Translations under genes and position numbers: made by a program
Part shown: positions 10,591 through 22,221 of the stretch, one piece after another
Layout: the number at the start of each line of letters is the position of its first letter
Numbering within the stretch: the first letter of the stretch is position 1
The notes under the pieces: model-generated
Databases searched by the model: none
Told to the model about the DNA's origin: nothing
What the model saw: the letters and a program-made list of their open reading frames with translations, nothing else
Assembly (NCBI GenBank): GCA_017523925.1
Contig: JAFWVQ010000064.1
Location: forward strand, 1-64,000
Reading direction: 5' to 3'
Length of the DNA stretch: 64,000 bases
From: Clostridia bacterium
GTDB taxonomy: Bacteria; Bacillota; Clostridia; Christensenellales; CAG-138

Positions 10591-13377
10591 TCAGTACTCG
10601 ATCCGGACGCTGCTGCCCTTGCCCCTTGTTTTTGTTACGATGATCTTGCGGTCGATCTGCTGCAGCTCGCTTATATGCGAGATTATACCTACAAGGCGCT
10701 CCGAGCCCGCAAGCTCCTCGAGCGTTCTGATCGCCATTCGAAGCGACTCGTCGTCGAGCGAGCCGAAGCCCTCGTCGACGAAAAGCGTGTCGAGCCTGAT
10801 GCCGCCCGACGAGGATTGGATCGCATCCGAAAAGCCGAGCGCAAGCGCGAGCGCCGCCTTGAACGATTCGCCGCCAGAGAGGGAGCGTGCATCCCATTCC
10901 ACGAATCGGCCGTTCTCATCGAGGCCGCCATCGTGGTCGATAACGTTCAATTCAAGCCCGCTCTTGCCCCGCAGATCATCAGCGGTTTTTTTGCGCACGA
11001 GCTCATACTGACCTCCGCTCATCGCCATCAGCCTTACATTCGCGCGCGCGATGATATGCTCGAAGAAGCGCGTTTGAACGTAGGTTTCAAGCGAGATCTT
11101 TTCCTTGCCCTTGAGCGTTCCGCTCGCGGTTTCGGCAAGCTCGGTCACGAGTATCCGTTTTTCCTCGAGCATTTCAAGCTCGGCGGCGCTGTCGGTGAGT
11201 TCGGCATGGATAAGCCTGTTTGCGGCAATATCAGCGCCAACTTCATCGATGCCGCCGTTCAGCAGATCGATCTCACCATCAAGCGCATCCATGCGAAGCA
11301 GTATCGCCTCGCGGTCCGGCGCCTGCTCGCCGCTGAGCTGATCGGAGAGCTGGTTTATCCTGCCGCATATTTCGGCAAGCTTGGTTCTGTAATCCTCCTG
11401 AGCGCTCGCCGCGCTGTCGATCGCTGCCTTGATGCTCGAAGCCTCTTCCCTGAGGCGGGCGATCTCCTTCTCCGCCGCAAGCTTGCTTTCAAAGCTCAGC
11501 TTGCCCGCGTATTCGGCGATCTGCTTTTCAAGATTTGCGATCGCTTCCGCCGCTGCGGCGCGGTCGGTTTCATTCGACCTCAGCTTCAGCTCGAGTTCGC
11601 CGAGCTCCGCTTCAAGATCGGGCAGTTTTTCGTCTATCTGCTGCTTTCTTTGCTCTCTGCGCTCCTCCTCCGCGATATCCCGTTCGAGCTCGCCGAGCCT
11701 TTCGGCAACGGCGCGGAGCCGCTTTTCGAGCTCCTCGCTCATGCGCTCGGGTTCATCGCTCAAAGAGAGCTCACGAGCGTTCTTTTTCAGCTCCTCGAGC
11801 ATGCTGTCGCGTCGTGCGCCGAGGTTTCCTGCCGTTTGCGCCGCCTGCGAAGCACGCTCCTCCGCCGCATCCGCAGCCGCTTTTGCCTCCTCCAGTGCGG
11901 CCTCGGTCGGTGCGTTTTCCGAGAGCCTTGCAAGCATGCTTTCGTGCACGGCGGAGCCGCACACGGGGCAGATATCGCCCTCCTTGAGGGTGGAGGCGAG
12001 TATGCCCGCCTGCTCCCGAAGGAAGGTCTCGTTCATGGTTTCATACTCTGTATTCGCCGCCTTCGAGCCCGCTATTGCTCTTTCGAACGCTTCGCACGCC
12101 TCGACGCACTGCCTTTCGAGCGCTTCAAGCTCGGCGGTGCGCCTTCTAAGCGAGAGCAGATCGCGCTGCTCCTCCTCGGCGTTTTCAAGCTCGTTTTTCA
12201 GCTTTTCCCTGTTCTCTCCTGCGTTTTCAAGCTGCCTGCGTTCCTCCTTGAGCTCGGCGTTCTCAGCCACGAGCCGCTCATGTGTCCCGCGAAGCGCGGC
12301 CGAGTCCGAGTCAAGCTGCTCGACCGCCCTGCGTTTGGCGGCAAGCTCCGCGCTTTTTGCTTCCTTAGCATCATACTCTGGAAGCAGTGTCTCGACGGAG
12401 GCGGCCTTATTCAGCAGCGTTTCGCCCTCGCTCTCACGCGCTCTTGCAAGCTCGAGCGCACGCGCTGCGGCATCCAGGCTCTGCTGCGCCTGTGCCTTCT
12501 CTTCTTCTGCCTCGCTCAGCCTGCGCGCGGCGTCCTCATAGCTTTCCGCACGGGCGAGCGCCTGCTTTTCGGCATCGAGCGCAGCGCCCTTTTCGGCTCT
12601 TTGCTTCTTCAGCTCGCTGCTGCGTGCTTCGAGCGAATCGATCAGTCGGGAAAGCACCTCTGCGGCCGCAAGCGGACGGTACGGATCCGCCTTCGCCGTT
12701 TCAAGCTCACCGTGCAGCTCATGCTCCTCGGGGCAGGCTATGCGCGAAGCAAGCGAGCCGATGCTCTTCAGCTTTTCATCGTGCTCGGTTTCGGCTTTCT
12801 TGGCGGCCTGCTGAAGTTTTTCCTGAAATGCGTTGTAATACTCGGTTTTAAAGAGCTTGCGGAAGATCTCCTGCCTTGCCTTCGTATCAGCGGAGAGCAG
12901 CTTTCTGAATTCGCCCTGCGCCAGCATCGCAAGCTGCGAAAACTGGTCTCTGTCTATTCCAAGGATGTTCTTTATCTCTGTATTGACGGGTTTTTTGCCC
13001 GAAACGACCCTTCCGTCCGGCATGGTCAGCTCGGATTTATCCGGAAAGCTCTTTTTGACGCTGCCGTCCGCATTATTCAGCGTGCAGGCAGGGCGCCTTG
13101 CAACGGTGTATATCTTGCCGGCATATTCAAAGGTGAACTTCACCTCGGTCGGCACGCTGTCGTCCGCATGCTCACAGCGCAGCATACTCGGCTTGCGCTC
13201 ATTTCCGCTCGGCTCGCCGAACAGCGCGAAGGTTATCGCGTCGAAGAGGGCCGTTTTGCCAGATCCCGTTACGCCGGTTATAAGGAAAAGACCGCTTTTC
13301 CCGAATTTTTCAAAGTCCACCTGTTCGCGCTCCGCGTATGAGATGAAGGCGGACATTTCAAGCTTTATTGGTCTCAT
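10591..13377 (-). CDS. sbcC: Exonuclease SbcC (Rad50-like ATPase)
   Basis: The ATPase partner of SbcD in a nuclease that opens DNA hairpins and processes double-strand ends. At 928 residues it has the expected split ABC head and long coiled-coil. The N-terminal Walker A is GVTGSGKTALFDAI (about residue 35), coiled coil covers about 170-750, a zinc hook CPVCG sits near the middle, and the C-terminal head has the signature LSGGESF and Walker B TLFVDEGFGSLD. ATG at 13377 overlaps the sbcD stop by 4 nt. A 970-codon open frame on the opposite strand is a composition artefact of this gene. Confidence 0.96.
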   Translation of the reverse strand: MRPIKLEMSAFISYAEREQVDFEKFGKSGLFLITGVTGSGKTALFDAITFALFGEPSGNERKPSMLRCEHADDSVPTEVKFTFEYAGKIYTVARRPACTLNNADGSVKKSFPDKSELTMPDGRVVSGKKPVNTEIKNILGIDRDQFSQLAMLAQGEFRKLLSADTKARQEIFRKLFKTEYYNAFQEKLQQAAKKAETEHDEKLKSIGSLASRIACPEEHELHGELETAKADPYRPLAAAEVLSRLIDSLEARSSELKKQRAEKGAALDAEKQALARAESYEDAARRLSEAEEEKAQAQQSLDAAARALELARARESEGETLLNKAASVETLLPEYDAKEAKSAELAAKRRAVEQLDSDSAALRGTHERLVAENAELKEERRQLENAGENREKLKNELENAEEEQRDLLSLRRRTAELEALERQCVEACEAFERAIAGSKAANTEYETMNETFLREQAGILASTLKEGDICPVCGSAVHESMLARLSENAPTEAALEEAKAAADAAEERASQAAQTAGNLGARRDSMLEELKKNARELSLSDEPERMSEELEKRLRAVAERLGELERDIAEEERREQRKQQIDEKLPDLEAELGELELKLRSNETDRAAAAEAIANLEKQIAEYAGKLSFESKLAAEKEIARLREEASSIKAAIDSAASAQEDYRTKLAEICGRINQLSDQLSGEQAPDREAILLRMDALDGEIDLLNGGIDEVGADIAANRLIHAELTDSAAELEMLEEKRILVTELAETASGTLKGKEKISLETYVQTRFFEHIIARANVRLMAMSGGQYELVRKKTADDLRGKSGLELNVIDHDGGLDENGRFVEWDARSLSGGESFKAALALALGFSDAIQSSSGGIRLDTLFVDEGFGSLDDESLRMAIRTLEELAGSERLVGIISHISELQQIDRKIIVTKTRGKGSSVRIEY

Positions 13378-14724: not shown

Positions 14725-15957
14725 TCAGCTGTAAACAGCGATGGTCAGCGCGATATAAGTCACTAGGATGCAGGTGAGTATGACCGCCTGCTTCAAACGA
14801 TGCTCCGCGATCAGGCCCACGAACTCTCGCACGGCGGCATTCGGCCAGAAGTACCATTTTGTGGCGGCTCCGACTCCTATGGCGCGGATCTTGACGCGGC
14901 GGGCGCAGATGCCGCTTCTGAAAACGTGGTAATTTGATGTGGCGTAGGCGACCTTCGTTTCATTTGAAAATTTGCCCCTCTCGCTGCGCTCCGCGATCTT
15001 TTCCTTGGAGAAGCGCATATTCTGGATCGTATCGCGCGAGCGGTCCTCCATAACTATGCTGCTCTTGGGTATGCCCTGCTCGATAAGATAGCGCGTCATA
15101 GCGAGGCTTTCGGAATTCGCCTCAACGTCGCCCTTTCCGCCCGAGGTGATGAAGATGAGCTCCTTCCCCGTTTCCGCCTTCTGCTGCTTGTAGAAGGCGA
15201 TCGCGCGGTCGATGCGGCTTTTAAGCAGCGGGGTCGGTGTGCCGTCCTTCCTGAGTCCGCAGCCGAGCACGATAAGATAGTCCCGATCGAGGGGCGCCTT
15301 ATAGCGCACCACGATGATGTTTGCGATGATCGAGCCAATGAGCATGCATTCGAAATAGAGATAGAACGCGGCAAAGACGTTTGCAAAAAGGTCGTGCCTC
15401 ATCACCTCCGTCCGGCTGCCGCTTGCATAGCGATCGTAAAAGTAGAGGAAGAGCTCGCCCGCAACGAGCATCAGCGAAAGGATGATCCCGAGCGCGTTTA
15501 CAAAGCGCTTGCGCTCGTGCATAAGCAGCGAGATATTCGAAACAAAGAGCAGAACGGAGAATACGAGTATGAAGGGTATGGAGAAGAGCATGTAGTTTTT
15601 GGCGGAGTTCACAAGGATATGCGGTATCTCATTCACAGTGTAAACGCCCGGGAAGCGGATAACGCGCACGAGGACCACGACGCACGTCAGAAGGACCGAA
15701 GAAAGAAACAGCGCAAAGCCTATGTAGTATATCGTGTTGTAGGAATACGGATTGTATCGAAGCTGCTCCACGAAAGCCCAGATCAGCGAAGCGACCACGA
15801 CCGCAAGCAGTGCGATGGTCAGAATAAACAGCGGCACGATGTTATTTTCCGCGCCGCCGATATGCAAAAGCCCCGCTGCCGCTGCGGCAGCGAGCACGAC
15901 GGGTATCAGAAACAGAAGCTTCGGTTTTTTATCCCTTGAATCAAATTCTATCCTCAT
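14725..15957 (-). CDS. DUF218 (YdcF/SanA-like) membrane protein
   Basis: A 410-residue integral membrane protein. The first about 215 residues hold roughly six hydrophobic segments. They are followed by a DUF218 domain of the YdcF/SanA/ElyC type (YLIVLGCGLRKDGTPTPLLKSRIDRA, FITSGGKG, ESLAMTRYLIEQGI, EDRSRDTIQNM, ATSNYHVFRSG) and a last C-terminal helix. DUF218 proteins act in envelope processes, but their chemistry is unclear. The same multi-helix plus DUF218 layout is common in Gram-positives. It overlaps the HD-hydrolase gene by 17 nt, so they are probably coupled. Confidence 0.88.
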   Translation of the reverse strand: MRIEFDSRDKKPKLLFLIPVVLAAAAAAGLLHIGGAENNIVPLFILTIALLAVVVASLIWAFVEQLRYNPYSYNTIYYIGFALFLSSVLLTCVVVLVRVIRFPGVYTVNEIPHILVNSAKNYMLFSIPFILVFSVLLFVSNISLLMHERKRFVNALGIILSLMLVAGELFLYFYDRYASGSRTEVMRHDLFANVFAAFYLYFECMLIGSIIANIIVVRYKAPLDRDYLIVLGCGLRKDGTPTPLLKSRIDRAIAFYKQQKAETGKELIFITSGGKGDVEANSESLAMTRYLIEQGIPKSSIVMEDRSRDTIQNMRFSKEKIAERSERGKFSNETKVAYATSNYHVFRSGICARRVKIRAIGVGAATKWYFWPNAAVREFVGLIAEHRLKQAVILTCILVTYIALTIAVYS

Positions 15958-16546
15958 TTGGTTTCGTTTGATCCTCCCCGAAGATATCGTCGATGAGCGC
16001 GCTGAACTCCTTCCATGCGTCGTATCCGCTCAGCTCCGAAAGCAGCTCGCGGATCGAGCGATAGTACCACGCATGCTGCTTGGGGTCGCGCTGGTTGAAA
16101 TTATTGAATACCTCCGTGCCGCAGCGGCAAAAAGCTCGGTGTATGCCGCGCAGATTGGAGAGCTTATCGCCGAGCCAAACGTACTTAACGCCGATATCAC
16201 CTGCGTTTTTGAGCTCCTCGAGCGATTCCTCCTTGCGGATGCGCCAGCTCTCGGCCTTTGGCACGTCCGGCCTTTTGTTTTCGGTTTCGGACGCAACGAG
16301 CGCGGCTGTGCGCTCGCCGAAAAGCGCGCTTATCTCTTCCTGCGTGGCCGTGGTGTCCTCAACGGTATCATGCAGAAGCGCCGCTGCAAGCACCTCCTCA
16401 TCCGAAGTCATGGTTGAAACTATCAGCGCGACCTCGATCGGATGAAGAATGTATGGGGCGGAATCGATCTTGCGCACTGCGCCGCAGTGCTTTTCAAGGG
16501 CGAACGCAAGCGCCTTTTCAAACAGACTCATTTCAGCTTGTTTCAT
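15941..16546 (-). CDS. HD-domain hydrolase, (p)ppGpp hydrolase-like
   Basis: A 201-residue cytosolic protein resembling the hydrolase half of RelA/SpoT and stand-alone Mesh1-type enzymes. The HD pattern is visible: ILHPIEVALI, AAALLHDTVEDT (His-Asp pair), and GDKLSNLRGI near residue 130. Synthetase sequences are absent. ATG at 16546 is chosen because GGAGG precedes it by 5 nt; a TTG at 16558 lies inside that ribosome site. It may degrade alarmone or another 3'-pyrophosphorylated nucleotide; the substrate is inferred only from family resemblance. Confidence 0.85.
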   Translation of the reverse strand: MKQAEMSLFEKALAFALEKHCGAVRKIDSAPYILHPIEVALIVSTMTSDEEVLAAALLHDTVEDTTATQEEISALFGERTAALVASETENKRPDVPKAESWRIRKEESLEELKNAGDIGVKYVWLGDKLSNLRGIHRAFCRCGTEVFNNFNQRDPKQHAWYYRSIRELLSELSGYDAWKEFSALIDDIFGEDQTKPNEDRI

Positions 16547-16656
16547 TTCGGCCTCCAAAGCTATGGTTGATCTTAACTTCTATTCAATGCCGTTCAATAC
16601 CGTCCGTCAGCGTGATGCCTTACAAGGATCGGCTTAAATGCCCGCTGCTTTCGGCA

Positions 16657-18282
16657 TTATTTCGGCTCGCCGCCTGCGGGAAGCTTCAGCTCAAGCGTGA
16701 GGATATTCTTCCCGTCCCTGTATTCGTATGAGATATCGTCCGCAAGCTTCTTGGTCATGAATATGCCGAGCCCGCCGACCCGACGTTCGCTTGCGGGCAG
16801 ATCAAGATCCGGGTCCGGCTTGGCGAGCGGATCGTAGCGGATGCCGCTGTCGATGAAAACCACCTTTGCGGATTCGTTTTCGAAGCGCGTGCGCACCTTC
16901 ACCGTTCCGCTGCCGTTAGGATAGGCATAATCCGCTATGTTCACGAAGATCTCCTCCACGGCGATCGAGAAGCGCATCACGAGCTTCGGCGGAAAGCCCG
17001 CCGCCACGAGGCGCTCCGAAACGAAGTCCATCACTTTTTCAAGCGAGTTTCGCTCGGCCTCGACCTCGAGCGCGTTTGCATCCTGCCCTCCGGAAAGAAC
17101 GGCGCCTGCATCGAAGTCAAGCTCCGTCAGCCCGTCGAGCAGCTCGCAAAGCTCCTTCTTCCAAAGCTCGACCGTTGCTCTGTCCTCGTCGGTATCGAGC
17201 CCCATGTGCCGAATGCGCCAATCTATCATATCGGAATACGCGATACAGCGCGCCTTCGCCTCTACCTCGGCGATGAATGCCTCGTCGTCCGTATTCAGAT
17301 ACGCCCTCAGGCTCCTCTGCCAGAACTCCTTCGCAGTATCGGCATCGAAGCCCTGAAACTTGAGCACGATGGCGGGATCGTATTCGGAGAAGCCGACGTA
17401 TGCCCGATAGATGCGCGCAAGCTCGAAAACGGGATGCCCGACGCAGAGCGTGTCCATATCAATGAGCAGCACCTCGCCGTCCGCAAGCACGATATTCTGC
17501 GTGTGGTAATCCCCGTGGAGCATATTGTCCGTATCCGCAACGGCGTTCACCAGGTGCATCAGCTTTTCCGCGTGCTCCGGATCGAGAAGATGCTTCATCC
17601 TTTGAACGTCGCCTATCGCTTCCTCCTTGACCGGCGGAAGCTTGCCCTCGGGAACGGAGATGGCGTGGATGACGTGCAGCATATCGACGTACTCCTTAAC
17701 GCACCACGACATCCGCTCGGGTTCCTCGGCGATTATCTTTGAAAACGAGCGTGCGTTCAGAAGCTCAAACACCGAGCCGAAGCTGTTTCCGACCTTTACA
17801 ACGTCGTAGGAAATAGCGGTCGGAACGCCGAGTATCAGCGCAAGACGCGCCGTTTCGCGCTCGCGCTTTATCTCCTCGAGCCCCTCGCCGTGCTTATAGA
17901 CCTTAACCACGGTGTCGCTGTCGATACGGTAGACAGCGGCATTGAAGCCTTCGCCGATGATCTCGCAGTTTTCGACCGAGATCCTGCGAAACGCCTTTTC
18001 AACGCCGATCATCTCCGTGAAGCCCGTCATTTCGAGTATCTCATATACGTCCGAACTGACGTTGACCATCCGCAAATCGGAGCATTCCTTGCGCAGGCGC
18101 AGCAGGATGCGCAGACCTGCGCTTGAGATATAATCCAGCTTTTCGGCATCGAGAACAAGCCCTTTGGGCGCGCTCGGGCCGATCAGGCTGCGGATCCGCT
18201 CCTCCTCGGAAGAAGCATTGTTTGAATCTATCCTGCCCGAAAGCGGGATCGTGATCGTGTTTTGATTGTTCGGATCGTTCAT
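16657..18282 (-). CDS. STAS-kinase-ATPase fusion protein (partner-switching regulator)
   Basis: A 541-residue protein with three fused signalling domains. Residues about 10-100 are a STAS anti-sigma-antagonist domain with the phosphorylatable motif LDYISSAGLRIL (Ser53/54). Residues about 105-390 are a kinase of the aminoglycoside-phosphotransferase fold: Gly-rich loop IGEGFNAAVYRI, Lys in VVKVYK, catalytic loop MLHGDYHTQNIVL (Asp258, Asn263) and metal-binding LLIDMDTL (Asp275). Residues about 405-535 are an RsbW-type HATPase domain with N-box VEEIFVNIADYAY, G1 DSGIRYDP and G2 GGLGIFM. STAS and RsbW domains are usually separate partners, so their fusion through a kinase is unusual. GGAGG lies 7 nt before the ATG. 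A lone STAS gene and an ATPase-like gene lie immediately upstream. Confidence 0.9.
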   Translation of the reverse strand: MNDPNNQNTITIPLSGRIDSNNASSEEERIRSLIGPSAPKGLVLDAEKLDYISSAGLRILLRLRKECSDLRMVNVSSDVYEILEMTGFTEMIGVEKAFRRISVENCEIIGEGFNAAVYRIDSDTVVKVYKHGEGLEEIKRERETARLALILGVPTAISYDVVKVGNSFGSVFELLNARSFSKIIAEEPERMSWCVKEYVDMLHVIHAISVPEGKLPPVKEEAIGDVQRMKHLLDPEHAEKLMHLVNAVADTDNMLHGDYHTQNIVLADGEVLLIDMDTLCVGHPVFELARIYRAYVGFSEYDPAIVLKFQGFDADTAKEFWQRSLRAYLNTDDEAFIAEVEAKARCIAYSDMIDWRIRHMGLDTDEDRATVELWKKELCELLDGLTELDFDAGAVLSGGQDANALEVEAERNSLEKVMDFVSERLVAAGFPPKLVMRFSIAVEEIFVNIADYAYPNGSGTVKVRTRFENESAKVVFIDSGIRYDPLAKPDPDLDLPASERRVGGLGIFMTKKLADDISYEYRDGKNILTLELKLPAGGEPK

Positions 18283-18543
18283 CGAACGGCCTCCTGTTTG
18301 TTCCGCCGCAAGCCCGGCACGGTACCGAGCCGCATGCGTTTCGGTTTGGCTCCCTGTCTGGCGGCAGCGGGCCTTTCGGGATCGTGTCAGCCCAATGGTT
18401 TCAAAGCCGCTTATAAAAGCGAATGCGCCGCGATAAGGCGTGATGCATATGCGAAATCACCCCCGATCCTTCGATCAGCGGCGAAAAGTATGCGCGGCTT
18501 CAAGCGGAGAAAGCGCGGGCCTTGCGCCTTCAACGCAGCAGGA

Positions 18544-18840
18544 TCATTCTATGCTCAGAATATCGCAGAAGCCGGTGATCTCGAAGATCTCGCCGACCAT
18601 TTCGTTCACGTTCGTGACCTTCATCGAGCCCTTTTCGTTCATCTTCTTTTGAGCGGAAAGCAGCACCCTGAGGCCTGCCGAGGAGATGTATTCGAGATAG
18701 CTGCAGTCGATGGTGAGCTCCTGCACGCCGTCCAGCTCCGTGTTGATCACCGCCTCGAGCGTGGGCGAGGTTATGGTGTCCAGCCTGCCCCGAAGCTCAA
18801 GGGTAAGCGCGCTGCCGTTTTCTTTTTTGATGATCTCCAT
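18544..18840 (-). CDS. STAS-domain anti-sigma factor antagonist
   Basis: A 98-residue single STAS domain of the SpoIIAA/RsbV type. Key features are LRGRLDTITSPTLE, the phospho-serine loop CSYLEYISSAGLRVLL and the C-terminal EIFEITGFCDIL. Such proteins bind an RsbW-type ATPase when unphosphorylated and release the ATPase's target. ATG at 18840 follows GGAGG. It lies between the fusion gene (262 nt downstream) and the ATPase-like gene (70 nt upstream), suggesting all three work together. Confidence 0.93.
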   Translation of the reverse strand: MEIIKKENGSALTLELRGRLDTITSPTLEAVINTELDGVQELTIDCSYLEYISSAGLRVLLSAQKKMNEKGSMKVTNVNEMVGEIFEITGFCDILSIE

Positions 18841-18909
18841 TGATAATTCCTCCTTCTTGATTTGCATAAAGCGGTTTTATGAATCCGCATCCAATGAAAT
18901 ACTGTCCGA

Positions 18910-19527
18910 TCAGCGATCGAACTTTTTGATTATCGTCATTTCAACGCTCGAGCCGGAGATGCCGATCTGAACGTCGTCCGCAAGCTTGGCAACGACCGAT
19001 TTTTCAAGCTCGTCCCAGGCCTCCTTGGGCGTTTTGCCATCCTCTGCGGCCGCTTTATAGCTGCGAAGCGACCACTGCTCCGCTCCGGACATGGGCAGCA
19101 TGCCGAATTCCGCGTTTGCGAAGCTGTGATCCATCAGCGTGATCAGCTCGAAATCACCGCCTTCTGCGGCGGGCTCCATCATGCGCTCGAAAAGGTCGCG
19201 CAGCTTGCCGGTAACGCCCCTCGCGGCAGAGTTTCTGCCGCTTGAGGATACCTCGAGCAGGCTGCTTCTCAGAGCCGCGTTCATTCGGGTCTTCGATAAA
19301 AGATGCAGCTCGAATGCGCCGCTGTCATCGTTGTCCTCGAGCCAGAACACGGCCTCTCTATCGCCCGTCAGAGCGCGCATCATGCCCATCATTTCCTCGG
19401 TAAGCAGGCGCAGATGCAGCCTGTTCTTTTCGCCGAGCTCCTTATAGGCCGCCACCTTCTCCACCTGCGCAAGCGCCTCGGAAAAGCCGTCGCCCTTGTT
19501 GGTTACAGTTATTCTGTCAGATCTCAT
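18910..19527 (-). CDS. ATPase-like partner protein of the STAS module
   Basis: A 205-residue cytosolic protein. The segment KNRLHLRLLTEEMMGMMRAL sits where an RsbW/SpoIIAB-type ATPase has its N-box, and WLEDNDDSGAFELHLLSKTRM resembles a following strand pair, but the nucleotide-binding Asn and glycine boxes are not convincing. I therefore call it a possible degenerate HATPase relative of unknown function. ATG at 19527 follows AAGGAG at 8 nt; the frame is open upstream without a ribosome site. It is the first gene of the STAS module and reads away from the lipoprotein gene at 19876. Confidence 0.6.
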   Translation of the reverse strand: MRSDRITVTNKGDGFSEALAQVEKVAAYKELGEKNRLHLRLLTEEMMGMMRALTGDREAVFWLEDNDDSGAFELHLLSKTRMNAALRSSLLEVSSSGRNSAARGVTGKLRDLFERMMEPAAEGGDFELITLMDHSFANAEFGMLPMSGAEQWSLRSYKAAAEDGKTPKEAWDELEKSVVAKLADDVQIGISGSSVEMTIIKKFDR

Positions 19528-19767
19528 TCCTATCACTCCTTGCCGTCTGCTTTGTATGCCGCCCGCCGAAGCCCGCCCGCACCACTTTGAAGCGGATGGA
19601 CGGTGCTGATTCGTTTGCGTTTCGGCGCGGCGATCCTTGCTGATATATTTTATCAAATTCCGCGCACGATTTCAAGCGTTTTGGCCATATTGCCGCATCG
19701 AAGCCGCAGCAGATGAGTTTTCCTGTTGTATTTCACGGAAAACCTAATGAAAAAGCATTCTGCGGTT

Positions 19768-19797
19768 TTGACAACGGAGGGGCAAATGCGGTATAAT
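19768..19797 (+). promoter_or_regulatory. Sigma-A promoter of the lipoprotein gene
   Basis: TTGACA (19768-19773), 18-nt spacer, TATAAT (19792-19797); start of transcription expected near 19804. Confidence 0.85.
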
Positions 19798-19875
19798 TGA
19801 GTATTGCGTAGCATTTCGGATGCGTTCCGCTCCCGGCTGCGCAAGGGTTCAAACGATCAGGAAGGAAAGTTCCAA

Positions 19876-21330
19876 ATGAAAAAGTTCCTCAAACCGGCTT
19901 TGGCGGCGCTGCTTGCGGCCGCGCTCATGTTCTTGGTTTCATGCTCGATCAAGCAGGAATCGCCGAAGCTCGAGCACAATCTGCTGTTTTTCTTCAACGA
20001 ATCCGAGAATGCGACCTCGTTCTATGCCGACGATAAGAGGCTTGACGAGCGCATCGGCGGCTCAATCTCCAACCTCGCCTCCGTGGACGGCACCGAGGGC
20101 TTGGTGCTCGCGTCAAGCTCGCTGTACCGCATCAATACCGACGGGCTTTTGAAGATCTACCCCGCTGCGGTCACAAACGCCGTGCCTGCTCTTTTTGGCG
20201 GCAAGATACTCTTCGCCACCGCCACGATGGTGCATCTTTACGACGAAGCGGCGAAGGATTACGTTAAGCTCGAGGGCATCGAGGCGGACAGCATCGTTGA
20301 TCTTGCGCTCTCACCGAGCGGCAGCAGCGCGGGCATCACCGTTCTCAAGGGCGAGAGCATGGTCGGCTATATCTATTCGAACGGAAGCGTTCGCGAGTAC
20401 GGCAATAAATGCATCGTTGCCGTATCCGACGATGCGAAGACCGTTTATTACCTCGACACGTTGGATAAGGAGCTGACGGGCGTTCTGCACAGGGAGAAGG
20501 ACGGCAATGACAGCGTTATTTCAAATGAAGCTTCGCCCTATTTCGAGCTCAACCGCGACCTTACAGAGATCACCTTCGACGTTAAGGGCAAGACCCATAT
20601 CAGCAGAAACGGCGAAGCGGCGCGCAAGCTCGTGGATTCATCCGTATTCTCGTTTGCTGGCGCGCAGCGCTCTGCGATGGGCGGCAAGGCCTGCACCACG
20701 CTTCTGAAAAACACGAACACGCTGCTGAACGGCATCTTCTACTCCAACACGGTCGGCGAGGACAGCAGCGGCAACAAGTACGATATGTACGATATTTATC
20801 ATATCAACGGTTCCCTGAGTGCAATCGCGCTCGCACTCGGCGCGACCCAGTTCAGCGTTTCCTCGGATTCAAAGCGCATCCTCACGTTAGTGGACGACGC
20901 GCTTTACACGGTCAGCGCGTATAATCCGAGATCCCCGGAGCTGATCGCGAACAACATCTACACCTTCTGCTGCGCAGACGATCTTTCGGACGTTCACTGC
21001 CTCGACCTTGGGGGCAACGTGCGCAAGCTTGAGGGCAGCTCGCTTTCGACGGTGCTCGTGACGGGTATCGACATGATCAAGCGCATGGCGGACGGCAGCG
21101 TGCTCTGCTACGCTTCGCTTGAGAGCGGAGGAACGCTCTTCCGCCTCAAGGATGATCGCGCCGAGCCGGTTGCCGTGGGCGTTCAGTACTTCGAGATCTA
21201 CGAGCACGTTGTGACCTATCTTACTAATTACGACGAGACCGCGCATACCTACGACCTTTACATCAGCCCGAACGGCATAGATTTCAGCCTCGCAGAAAAG
21301 AACGTGCTTATGGCAAGGCAGGTCGGCTGA
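19876..21330 (+). CDS. Lipoprotein of unknown function, propeller-like
   Basis: A 484-residue exported protein with a lipoprotein signal (MKKFLKPALAALLAAALMFLVSC, lipobox Cys about residue 23). The rest is repetitive beta-rich sequence with recurring patterns such as SSLYRINTDG, MVHLYDEAAK, KTVYYLDTLD and DALYTVSAYN, spaced about 40-60 residues apart, suggesting a beta-propeller. I recognise no family or catalytic motif. ATG at 19876 is preferred over an upstream in-frame ATG at 19804, which coincides with the expected transcription start. uppP follows 84 nt downstream on the same strand. Confidence 0.8.
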   Translation: MKKFLKPALAALLAAALMFLVSCSIKQESPKLEHNLLFFFNESENATSFYADDKRLDERIGGSISNLASVDGTEGLVLASSSLYRINTDGLLKIYPAAVTNAVPALFGGKILFATATMVHLYDEAAKDYVKLEGIEADSIVDLALSPSGSSAGITVLKGESMVGYIYSNGSVREYGNKCIVAVSDDAKTVYYLDTLDKELTGVLHREKDGNDSVISNEASPYFELNRDLTEITFDVKGKTHISRNGEAARKLVDSSVFSFAGAQRSAMGGKACTTLLKNTNTLLNGIFYSNTVGEDSSGNKYDMYDIYHINGSLSAIALALGATQFSVSSDSKRILTLVDDALYTVSAYNPRSPELIANNIYTFCCADDLSDVHCLDLGGNVRKLEGSSLSTVLVTGIDMIKRMADGSVLCYASLESGGTLFRLKDDRAEPVAVGVQYFEIYEHVVTYLTNYDETAHTYDLYISPNGIDFSLAEKNVLMARQVG

Positions 21331-21414
21331 GGTATTTTGATCAAAGCCGCAGTATAATTTGAACGTATAAAACCAATCTCCCGATCCGGCGGATCGGAGC
21401 AAAGGAGTTTTAAA

Positions 21415-22221
21415 ATGAGTATTCTTGAATCCATCATCCTCGGTCTCGTGCAGGGACTGACCGAGTTCCTGCCCGTTTCCTCGAGCGGCCATCTGCTGCT
21501 GCTTCACAAGGCATTCGGCATAGAGACGGACCAAATGTTTTTCACGGTGCTGCTGCATCTCGGCACGCTTGCGGCGGTGCTCGTCGTTTACAGAAAGCGC
21601 ATCATCAAGATGCTTACGAAGCCGCTTGAGCAGAAGTTCCACTGGATCTGGCTGATCACAGCAACGCTCGTGACGGTCGGCGTTTATCTCGTGCTCAAAA
21701 AGCTCGACATCGTGGACGCTGCGGAGGACGGCTCCGCGCTCGGCTACTGCTTCATCATAACTTCGATCCTGCTCGTTATCTGCGATCTTCTCAGAAAGCG
21801 GCTCGACGGCAAGCGCAGCATCCCCGAGATGAAATGGTATCATGCGGCGTTCATCGGCTTCATGCAGGGCATCGCTCCCCTTCCCGGCATCTCCCGCTCC
21901 GGCGCGACCATCACCGGCGCGACCGCCTGCGGCATGGCGCGCGAGGAGGCGGCGGAATTCAGCTTCCTGCTCTCCATACCCGCGATACTCGGCGGCGCTG
22001 TGCTCGAGATCCCCGATGCGATCAGGGAAGGCACGCACGGCATCGGCGCGCTCCCCTGCATCATCGGCGTTATCGTTGCTGCTGTGTCCGGCTATTTCGC
22101 CGTTAAGTTCATGATCAGGCTGATCACGAAGCGCTCTCTCACGGTCTTCGCGGTCTACACCGCGCTGCTCGGAGTGTTCGTGTTTCTCGATCAGTACGCT
22201 CTGCATCTCATCAAATGGTGA
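21415..22221 (+). CDS. uppP: Undecaprenyl-diphosphatase
   Basis: Removes a phosphate from undecaprenyl diphosphate to recycle the lipid carrier for peptidoglycan; overproduction gives bacitracin resistance (BacA). The 268-residue membrane protein shows both family signatures: LVQGLTEFLPVSSSGHLLL near the N-terminus and MQGIAPLPGISRSGATI in the second half, with about eight helices. AAGGAG lies 7 nt before the ATG. A strong bidirectional terminator follows. Confidence 0.97.
   Translation: MSILESIILGLVQGLTEFLPVSSSGHLLLLHKAFGIETDQMFFTVLLHLGTLAAVLVVYRKRIIKMLTKPLEQKFHWIWLITATLVTVGVYLVLKKLDIVDAAEDGSALGYCFIITSILLVICDLLRKRLDGKRSIPEMKWYHAAFIGFMQGIAPLPGISRSGATITGATACGMAREEAAEFSFLLSIPAILGGAVLEIPDAIREGTHGIGALPCIIGVIVAAVSGYFAVKFMIRLITKRSLTVFAVYTALLGVFVFLDQYALHLIKW

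Follow-up and report, generated by a model that had tools for sequence, protein, structure and literature searches.

A gut-bacterial partner-switching module whose output is probably a small-molecule kinase

Results

A 64,000-nucleotide stretch of Clostridia bacterium DNA (assembly GCA_017523925.1, contig JAFWVQ010000064.1; the window) carries a gene group that probably forms a partner switch acting on a STAS-gated APH small-molecule kinase, rather than on a sigma factor, with a phosphohydrolase paired to that kinase. At its center is a single 541-residue protein that joins a STAS domain, an APH-fold kinase domain and an RsbW-type ATPase domain. The features of the locus are as follows.

14725-15957, minus strand: membrane protein of the DUF218/YdcF type (a homologue, L068_9, matches DUF218 at 3e-24)
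15941-16546, minus strand: HD_4 hydrolase, MESH1/SpoT-hydrolase-like, the next gene after the fusion (Pfam 1.4e-22)
16657-18282, minus strand: STAS-APH-HATPase_c_2 fusion protein, 541 aa (open reading frame and Pfam)
16693-17061, minus strand: RsbW/SpoIIAB-type ATPase domain of the fusion, residues 408-530 (Pfam 2.5e-21; N-box, G1 and G2 intact)
17299-17982, minus strand: APH-fold kinase domain of the fusion, residues 101-328 on the TIGR02172 model (Pfam, TIGR02172 and AlphaFold2 fold)
17998-18270, minus strand: STAS domain of the fusion, residues 5-95 (Pfam 6.4e-15)
18544-18840, minus strand: stand-alone STAS protein, 98 aa from the ATG at 18840 (Pfam 1.4e-15)
18910-19527, minus strand: P0003, degenerate protein of predicted RsbW/SpoIIAB fold, 205 aa (alignment and AlphaFold2 model)
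19647-19675, minus strand: promoter-like site upstream of P0003, TTGAAA-17-TAAAAT, TG-extended (a weak indication, as the number of such matches equals the shuffled expectation)

Domains and catalytic residues of the fusion protein

The three domains that the first-pass annotation had read in this one frame were all recovered by Pfam search above their curated cut-offs (APH at residues 107–305, 1.2e-13; the others as listed). The predicted phospho-acceptor of the STAS domain is S53/S54, within YISSAGLR, and the catalytic set of an APH-fold kinase (PF01636) is complete, comprising HGDxHxxN, DxD, the P-loop Lys and the Glu. Ser53/Ser54, Asp258, Asn263 and Asp275 lie where that annotation had placed them, and S53, S54, K127, E141, D258, N263 and D275 are present in 106 of 106 distinct homologues; the N-box residues E444/N448 and the G1 residues D478/G480 are likewise kept in all 85 homologues that have the ATPase domain. 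Such conservation in all three domains argues against the fusion being a neutral passenger. An assembly error joining two frames, raised earlier as a concern, is ruled out by many independent full-length orthologues: fusions of 52–64% identity occur in eight related genomes, one of them from a different family, and the full fusion is kept in 86 distinct loci of the annotated set, from gut and rumen Bacillota.

The APH domain covers the whole of the NCBIfam model TIGR02172 (3.7e-31) but scores 108.7 bits against a curated cut-off of 228.2. Its AlphaFold2 model (pLDDT 90.3) adopts the APH/choline kinase fold (Z up to 16.0; Foldseek E 2e-8), with structural matches to aminoglycoside, choline and related kinases, mainly small-molecule kinases, and also to LxmK, a lanthipeptide-modification kinase. 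The domain is probably a small-molecule kinase; a protein or peptide could also serve as its substrate. That it is a protein kinase, acting on its own or the stand-alone STAS domain or on P0003 as a second phosphorylation input, is quite unlikely. In favor of it are the fold common to APH-like and protein kinases, the role of at least one PDB relative of APH fold (LxmK) in peptide modification, and the position of the domains in cis. Against it, small-molecule kinases give the best matches in structure and sequence, the fusion already has a dedicated STAS kinase, and APH domains are found with HD_4 in proteins that lack any STAS.

The stand-alone STAS protein and P0003

Two partner genes upstream of the fusion had been noticed at the outset, a lone STAS gene, now supported by Pfam, and the gene for P0003. 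The true start of the STAS gene is probably the ATG at 18840, and the alternative reading from the ATG at 18867 (107 aa) too long, because an AGGAGG precedes the former and the protein has 98 aa in most relatives. S-S is present at the phosphorylation site of 81 of 85 stand-alone STAS proteins. The gap of about 260 nt between this gene and the fusion (18283–18543) has no promoter-like match. In three loci (L090 518–1189, L103 and L106) a 223-aa protein is encoded between the two; a family search with the L090 copy returned no match. No Rfam family was found within 15000–21500.

P0003 matched no model in Pfam or NCBIfam, and a sequence search of the PDB gave no relevant match. Its link to RsbW by sequence profile is weak (hhalign probability 11%), so the relationship is settled by the predicted fold alone. 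The AlphaFold2 model, with a mean pLDDT of 67.6 and residues 117–176 mostly unresolved, matches RsbW (6m36_G) with Z 14.4 and rmsd 2.6 over 104 aligned residues, SpoIIAB with Z 13 and SiaB with Z 11.6, while the remaining list stays at Z 7 or below. The comparison with SpoIIAB, suggested as a check in the first-pass annotation, bears out the N-box-like segment described there. An alignment of 16 members shows that the N-box retains its invariant EE but not the Asn, and that the G1 and G2 boxes (DxGxG, GGLG) are missing from all 16. Judged from model and alignment, P0003 reads as a catalytically dead RsbW-fold partner, and it may serve as a non-catalytic STAS-binding protein, a decoy or titrator. 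The usual neighbor of P0003-type genes is a stand-alone STAS gene, and the two often form a separate pair in relatives.

A PP2C phosphatase and an ATPase carried by either partner

Genes in relatives were called with a custom codon-usage script, and the relatives were annotated by phmmer against few queries, with Pfam applied to representatives. Many relatives have a PP2C (SpoIIE) gene directly upstream: 40 of 75 loci carry it at position −1 or −2 and one at −3, none has it at a greater upstream distance, and the median gap is 7 nt. Representative SpoIIE matches in Pfam reach 2.7e-48 and 8e-51, and the phosphatase is membrane-bound wherever its sequence was inspected, in one case with a dCache sensor and HAMP. 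A phosphatase near orthologues, absent from the first-pass annotation, which had only proposed a search for one, is therefore found in relatives but is unlinked in the window's genome: 41 of 90 full-fusion loci, the window among them, have no PP2C within three genes, and the sole PP2C of fusion-partner type in this genome is an orphan on contig C53 (548 aa; PP2C 1e-106), without an ATPase. The predicted switch circuit of this genome is thus complete but split. With a STAS domain bearing the conserved Ser and an RsbW-type ATPase with N-box, G1 and G2 in the fusion itself, and a PP2C beside it in relatives, the affiliation with partner switching of the RsbV/RsbW/RsbU type proposed earlier stands. 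Elsewhere in the window's genome, another APH-like gene stands three genes ahead of a gene of PP2C type (L062 4867–8740; G000 contig C1), in a cluster that resembles a redox or hydrogenase cluster and follows an AdhE-like gene.

The ATPase domain is distributed between the two partners in a nearly exclusive manner. Of 49 PP2Cs that adjoin a full fusion, 48 have no ATPase, whereas beside a STAS-APH protein that has no ATPase the PP2C carries one in 11 of 11 (48:1 against 0:11; Fisher 3.5e-11, a value that is overstated since the loci share ancestry and the rows and other neighbor counts are phylogenetically non-independent). ATPases from fusions and from PP2Cs form one subfamily in the tree. 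The tree shows four label changes, of which starred branches force two, and has too few columns to decide for or against a single origin of the fusion. STAS-APH is the constant part, and the ATPase is carried by either partner. This exchange fits the kinase as the regulated target and the ATPase as the kinase of its STAS domain. The earlier proposal that the APH domain adds a third input by phosphorylation, or senses a small molecule, is not supported, as the pattern of domain shuffling fits a kinase that is itself regulated. Across genomes the APH domain occurs with HD_4 only, with STAS only, with HD_4 and STAS, and with STAS and the ATPase.

Phosphohydrolases beside and fused to the kinase

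The first-pass annotation was right about the STAS and P0003 partners and missed the neighboring phosphohydrolase at 15941–16546. Against the PDB this HD_4 protein matches Lmo0812 (3e-26) and MESH1 (2e-15), and it has the residues expected of a predicted small alarmone hydrolase (R, H, HDxxED, D and N). The DUF218/YdcF-type gene overlaps it by 17 nt and recurs downstream, being found close to the fusion at 19 loci. Most relatives from the rumen have a PHP enzyme in place of HD_4; its nearest families are 3′,5′-nucleoside bisphosphate phosphatase (1.7e-31) and RNase RNM (1.5e-29), with neither match reaching its cut-off. Among 119 STAS-APH loci, HD_4 is found in 17, PHP in 49 and both in none; roughly half of these loci lack either enzyme within three genes. 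Active-site residues are kept in both enzymes. HD_4 is also fused to the kinase, as HD_4-STAS-APH at L196 and as HD_4-APH, without STAS or ATPase, at L200 (5583–7061, minus strand) and L201 (5977–7461, minus strand); the latter two are apparent bifunctional kinase/hydrolases.

That the kinase is repeatedly fused with a phosphohydrolase points to one metabolite for both. Known relatives of the HD_4- and PHP-type hydrolase families act on 3′-phosphorylated nucleotides, and by analogy such nucleotides are a lead as the type of substrate shared here. A more specific version, in which the APH kinase would make a phosphorylated nucleotide-type signal that is destroyed by the MESH1-like HD_4 or by the 3′,5′-bisphosphate-phosphatase-like PHP enzyme, is tentative and rather unlikely. 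If it were true, the module would be a second-messenger synthase under partner-switch control, and transporters with RsbW-like docking domains would be further STAS targets.

Sigma factors and other ATPases of the genome

A search with the sigma factors of the genome itself placed sigma genes near three of 78 loci, at three different positions; the remaining 75 show no such linkage. The locus studied here has no linked sigma gene either, in agreement with the first-pass observation of no sigma factor in the window. An ordinary anti-sigma switch, in which the ATPase would sequester a sigma factor encoded elsewhere until STAS domains release it, with the APH domain as an accessory, would account for an ATPase of the RsbW/SpoIIAB family with all motifs intact, and the 24 Sigma70_r2 matches in the genome leave room for a distant target. 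This reading is unlikely, set against the missing linkage, against the dispensability of an ATPase domain without which STAS-APH stays joined, and against HD_4-APH fusions that do without switch domains. The four HATPase_c_2 matches in the genome are SpoIIAB, the fusion and two on contig C44, the C44 pair sitting in a redox-type cluster with one of the two below cut-off. The SpoIIAB-like protein pairs with a SpoIIAA-like one on contig C22, separate from the fusion.

Transporter-linked relatives

MATE transporters with a C-terminal HATPase_c_2 domain lie near 15 loci (among them L064, at 11597–13372, and L068, L075, L085, L100, L117, L120, L123, L128, L134 and L138). Their RsbW-type ATPase domains form one well-supported clade, apart from those of fusions and PP2Cs at 100/100, and the domain make-up of the MATE-HATPase_c_2 protein suggests a transporter that a partner switch controls. 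An SDF (dicarboxylate) symporter is found at −1 in four loci; in the three inspected (L099 8302–9939, L112 8295–9941 and L114 8331–9971) its N-terminal domain looks like a degenerate, RsbW-like ATPase and its gene directly precedes the STAS-APH-HATPase gene. The match of this domain to the active ATPase family is weak to moderate and comes from three sequences only (E 4.8e-5, 68%); comparison with P0003 gave no support for a relationship. An MscS-type channel with a C-terminal P0003-like domain occurs at one locus (L096 13778–15151).

STAS proteins of the fusion's kind may, to judge from these architectures, also dock on transporters as a side branch. A module that chiefly controls membrane transport, with STAS switching transporters that bear (pseudo-)ATPase domains and the kinase making their regulator or substrate, would draw on the MATE, SDF and MscS cases alike. 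It is very unlikely, as these are a minority of loci and a search of the window's own genome found no MATE, SDF or MscS-type ATPase-domain fusion, only the four HATPase_c_2 matches and one P0003 match.

Distribution

With an alignment as query, a scan of 84,980 species genomes found at least 569 relatives, and the best 80 of these are Bacillota metagenome-assembled genomes whose source, where recorded, is mostly gut or rumen. Of 396 genomes sampled evenly from the window's order, 31 have a match, which includes the ATPase in 13 and is STAS-APH in the others; of 398 sampled from the phylum, five match, some by the APH part alone. Matches are thus frequent in some gut Clostridia and scattered in other groups. 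A search for plasmid carriage of the locus found no match.

Discussion

The reading preferred here, of a switch with the APH kinase as output, can be set out as a sequence of steps. A sensor PP2C of the SpoIIE type and the RsbW-type ATPase would oppose each other on STAS serines, their substrates being the kinase-fused domain and the stand-alone protein. Depending on how its own, fused STAS domain is phosphorylated or docked, the APH kinase would then become more or less active. It is predicted to phosphorylate a small molecule, and the product would be removed or recycled by the phosphohydrolase next to it (HD_4 at this locus, PHP in most relatives from the rumen). Taken together, the gene arrangements suggest that in these gut bacteria the switch acts directly on a kinase and not on a gene-expression factor.

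The textbook role of partner switches is to regulate sigma factors. The module has in common with the Bacillus systems SpoIIAA-SpoIIAB-SpoIIE and RsbV-RsbW-RsbU a STAS acceptor, an RsbW-type serine kinase and a PP2C, with motifs intact. It differs from them in that no sigma factor is linked, that one protein joins STAS and ATPase with an APH kinase, and that a degenerate RsbW-like protein and a phosphohydrolase neighbor are added. No description of STAS with APH, of HATPase_c_2 with APH and STAS, or of MATE with RsbW was found in the open-access literature searched, nor of the exact gene set, in keeping with the first-pass impression; a paper outside that literature is possible. The TIGR02172 family, which the APH domain matches over its full length below the cut-off, is named in no paper of the same literature. 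If the proposed reading holds, an enzyme-wired partner switch is an undescribed use of a well-known device, in which an RsbW-type ATPase is seen hopping between phosphatase and target. An uncharacterized kinase family would come under testable control, and its substrate would be traceable, since kinase and hydrolase, whether HD_4 or PHP, would be expected to share one molecule.

The neighboring HD_4 protein has the HDxxED motif in common with small alarmone hydrolases and MESH1. Here HD_4 lies beside an APH kinase or is joined to it in one protein, unlike the reported small RSH fusions, which involve Nudix and phosphomethylpyrimidine kinase domains (PMC3153485). A partner switch that acts on an enzyme has a precedent in SiaABC of Pseudomonas aeruginosa, which acts on SiaD (PMC7647112). 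The likeness to SiaABCD extends to a PP2C (SiaA), a kinase of RsbW fold (SiaB), an acceptor (SiaC) and an enzyme output without a sigma factor; in contrast, the output there is a diguanylate cyclase, SiaC is phosphorylated on threonine and no fusion is involved (PMC7647112). Should the present reading prove true, the small set of enzyme-output switches exemplified by SiaABCD would grow by a widespread gut-bacterial version that acts on a metabolic kinase.
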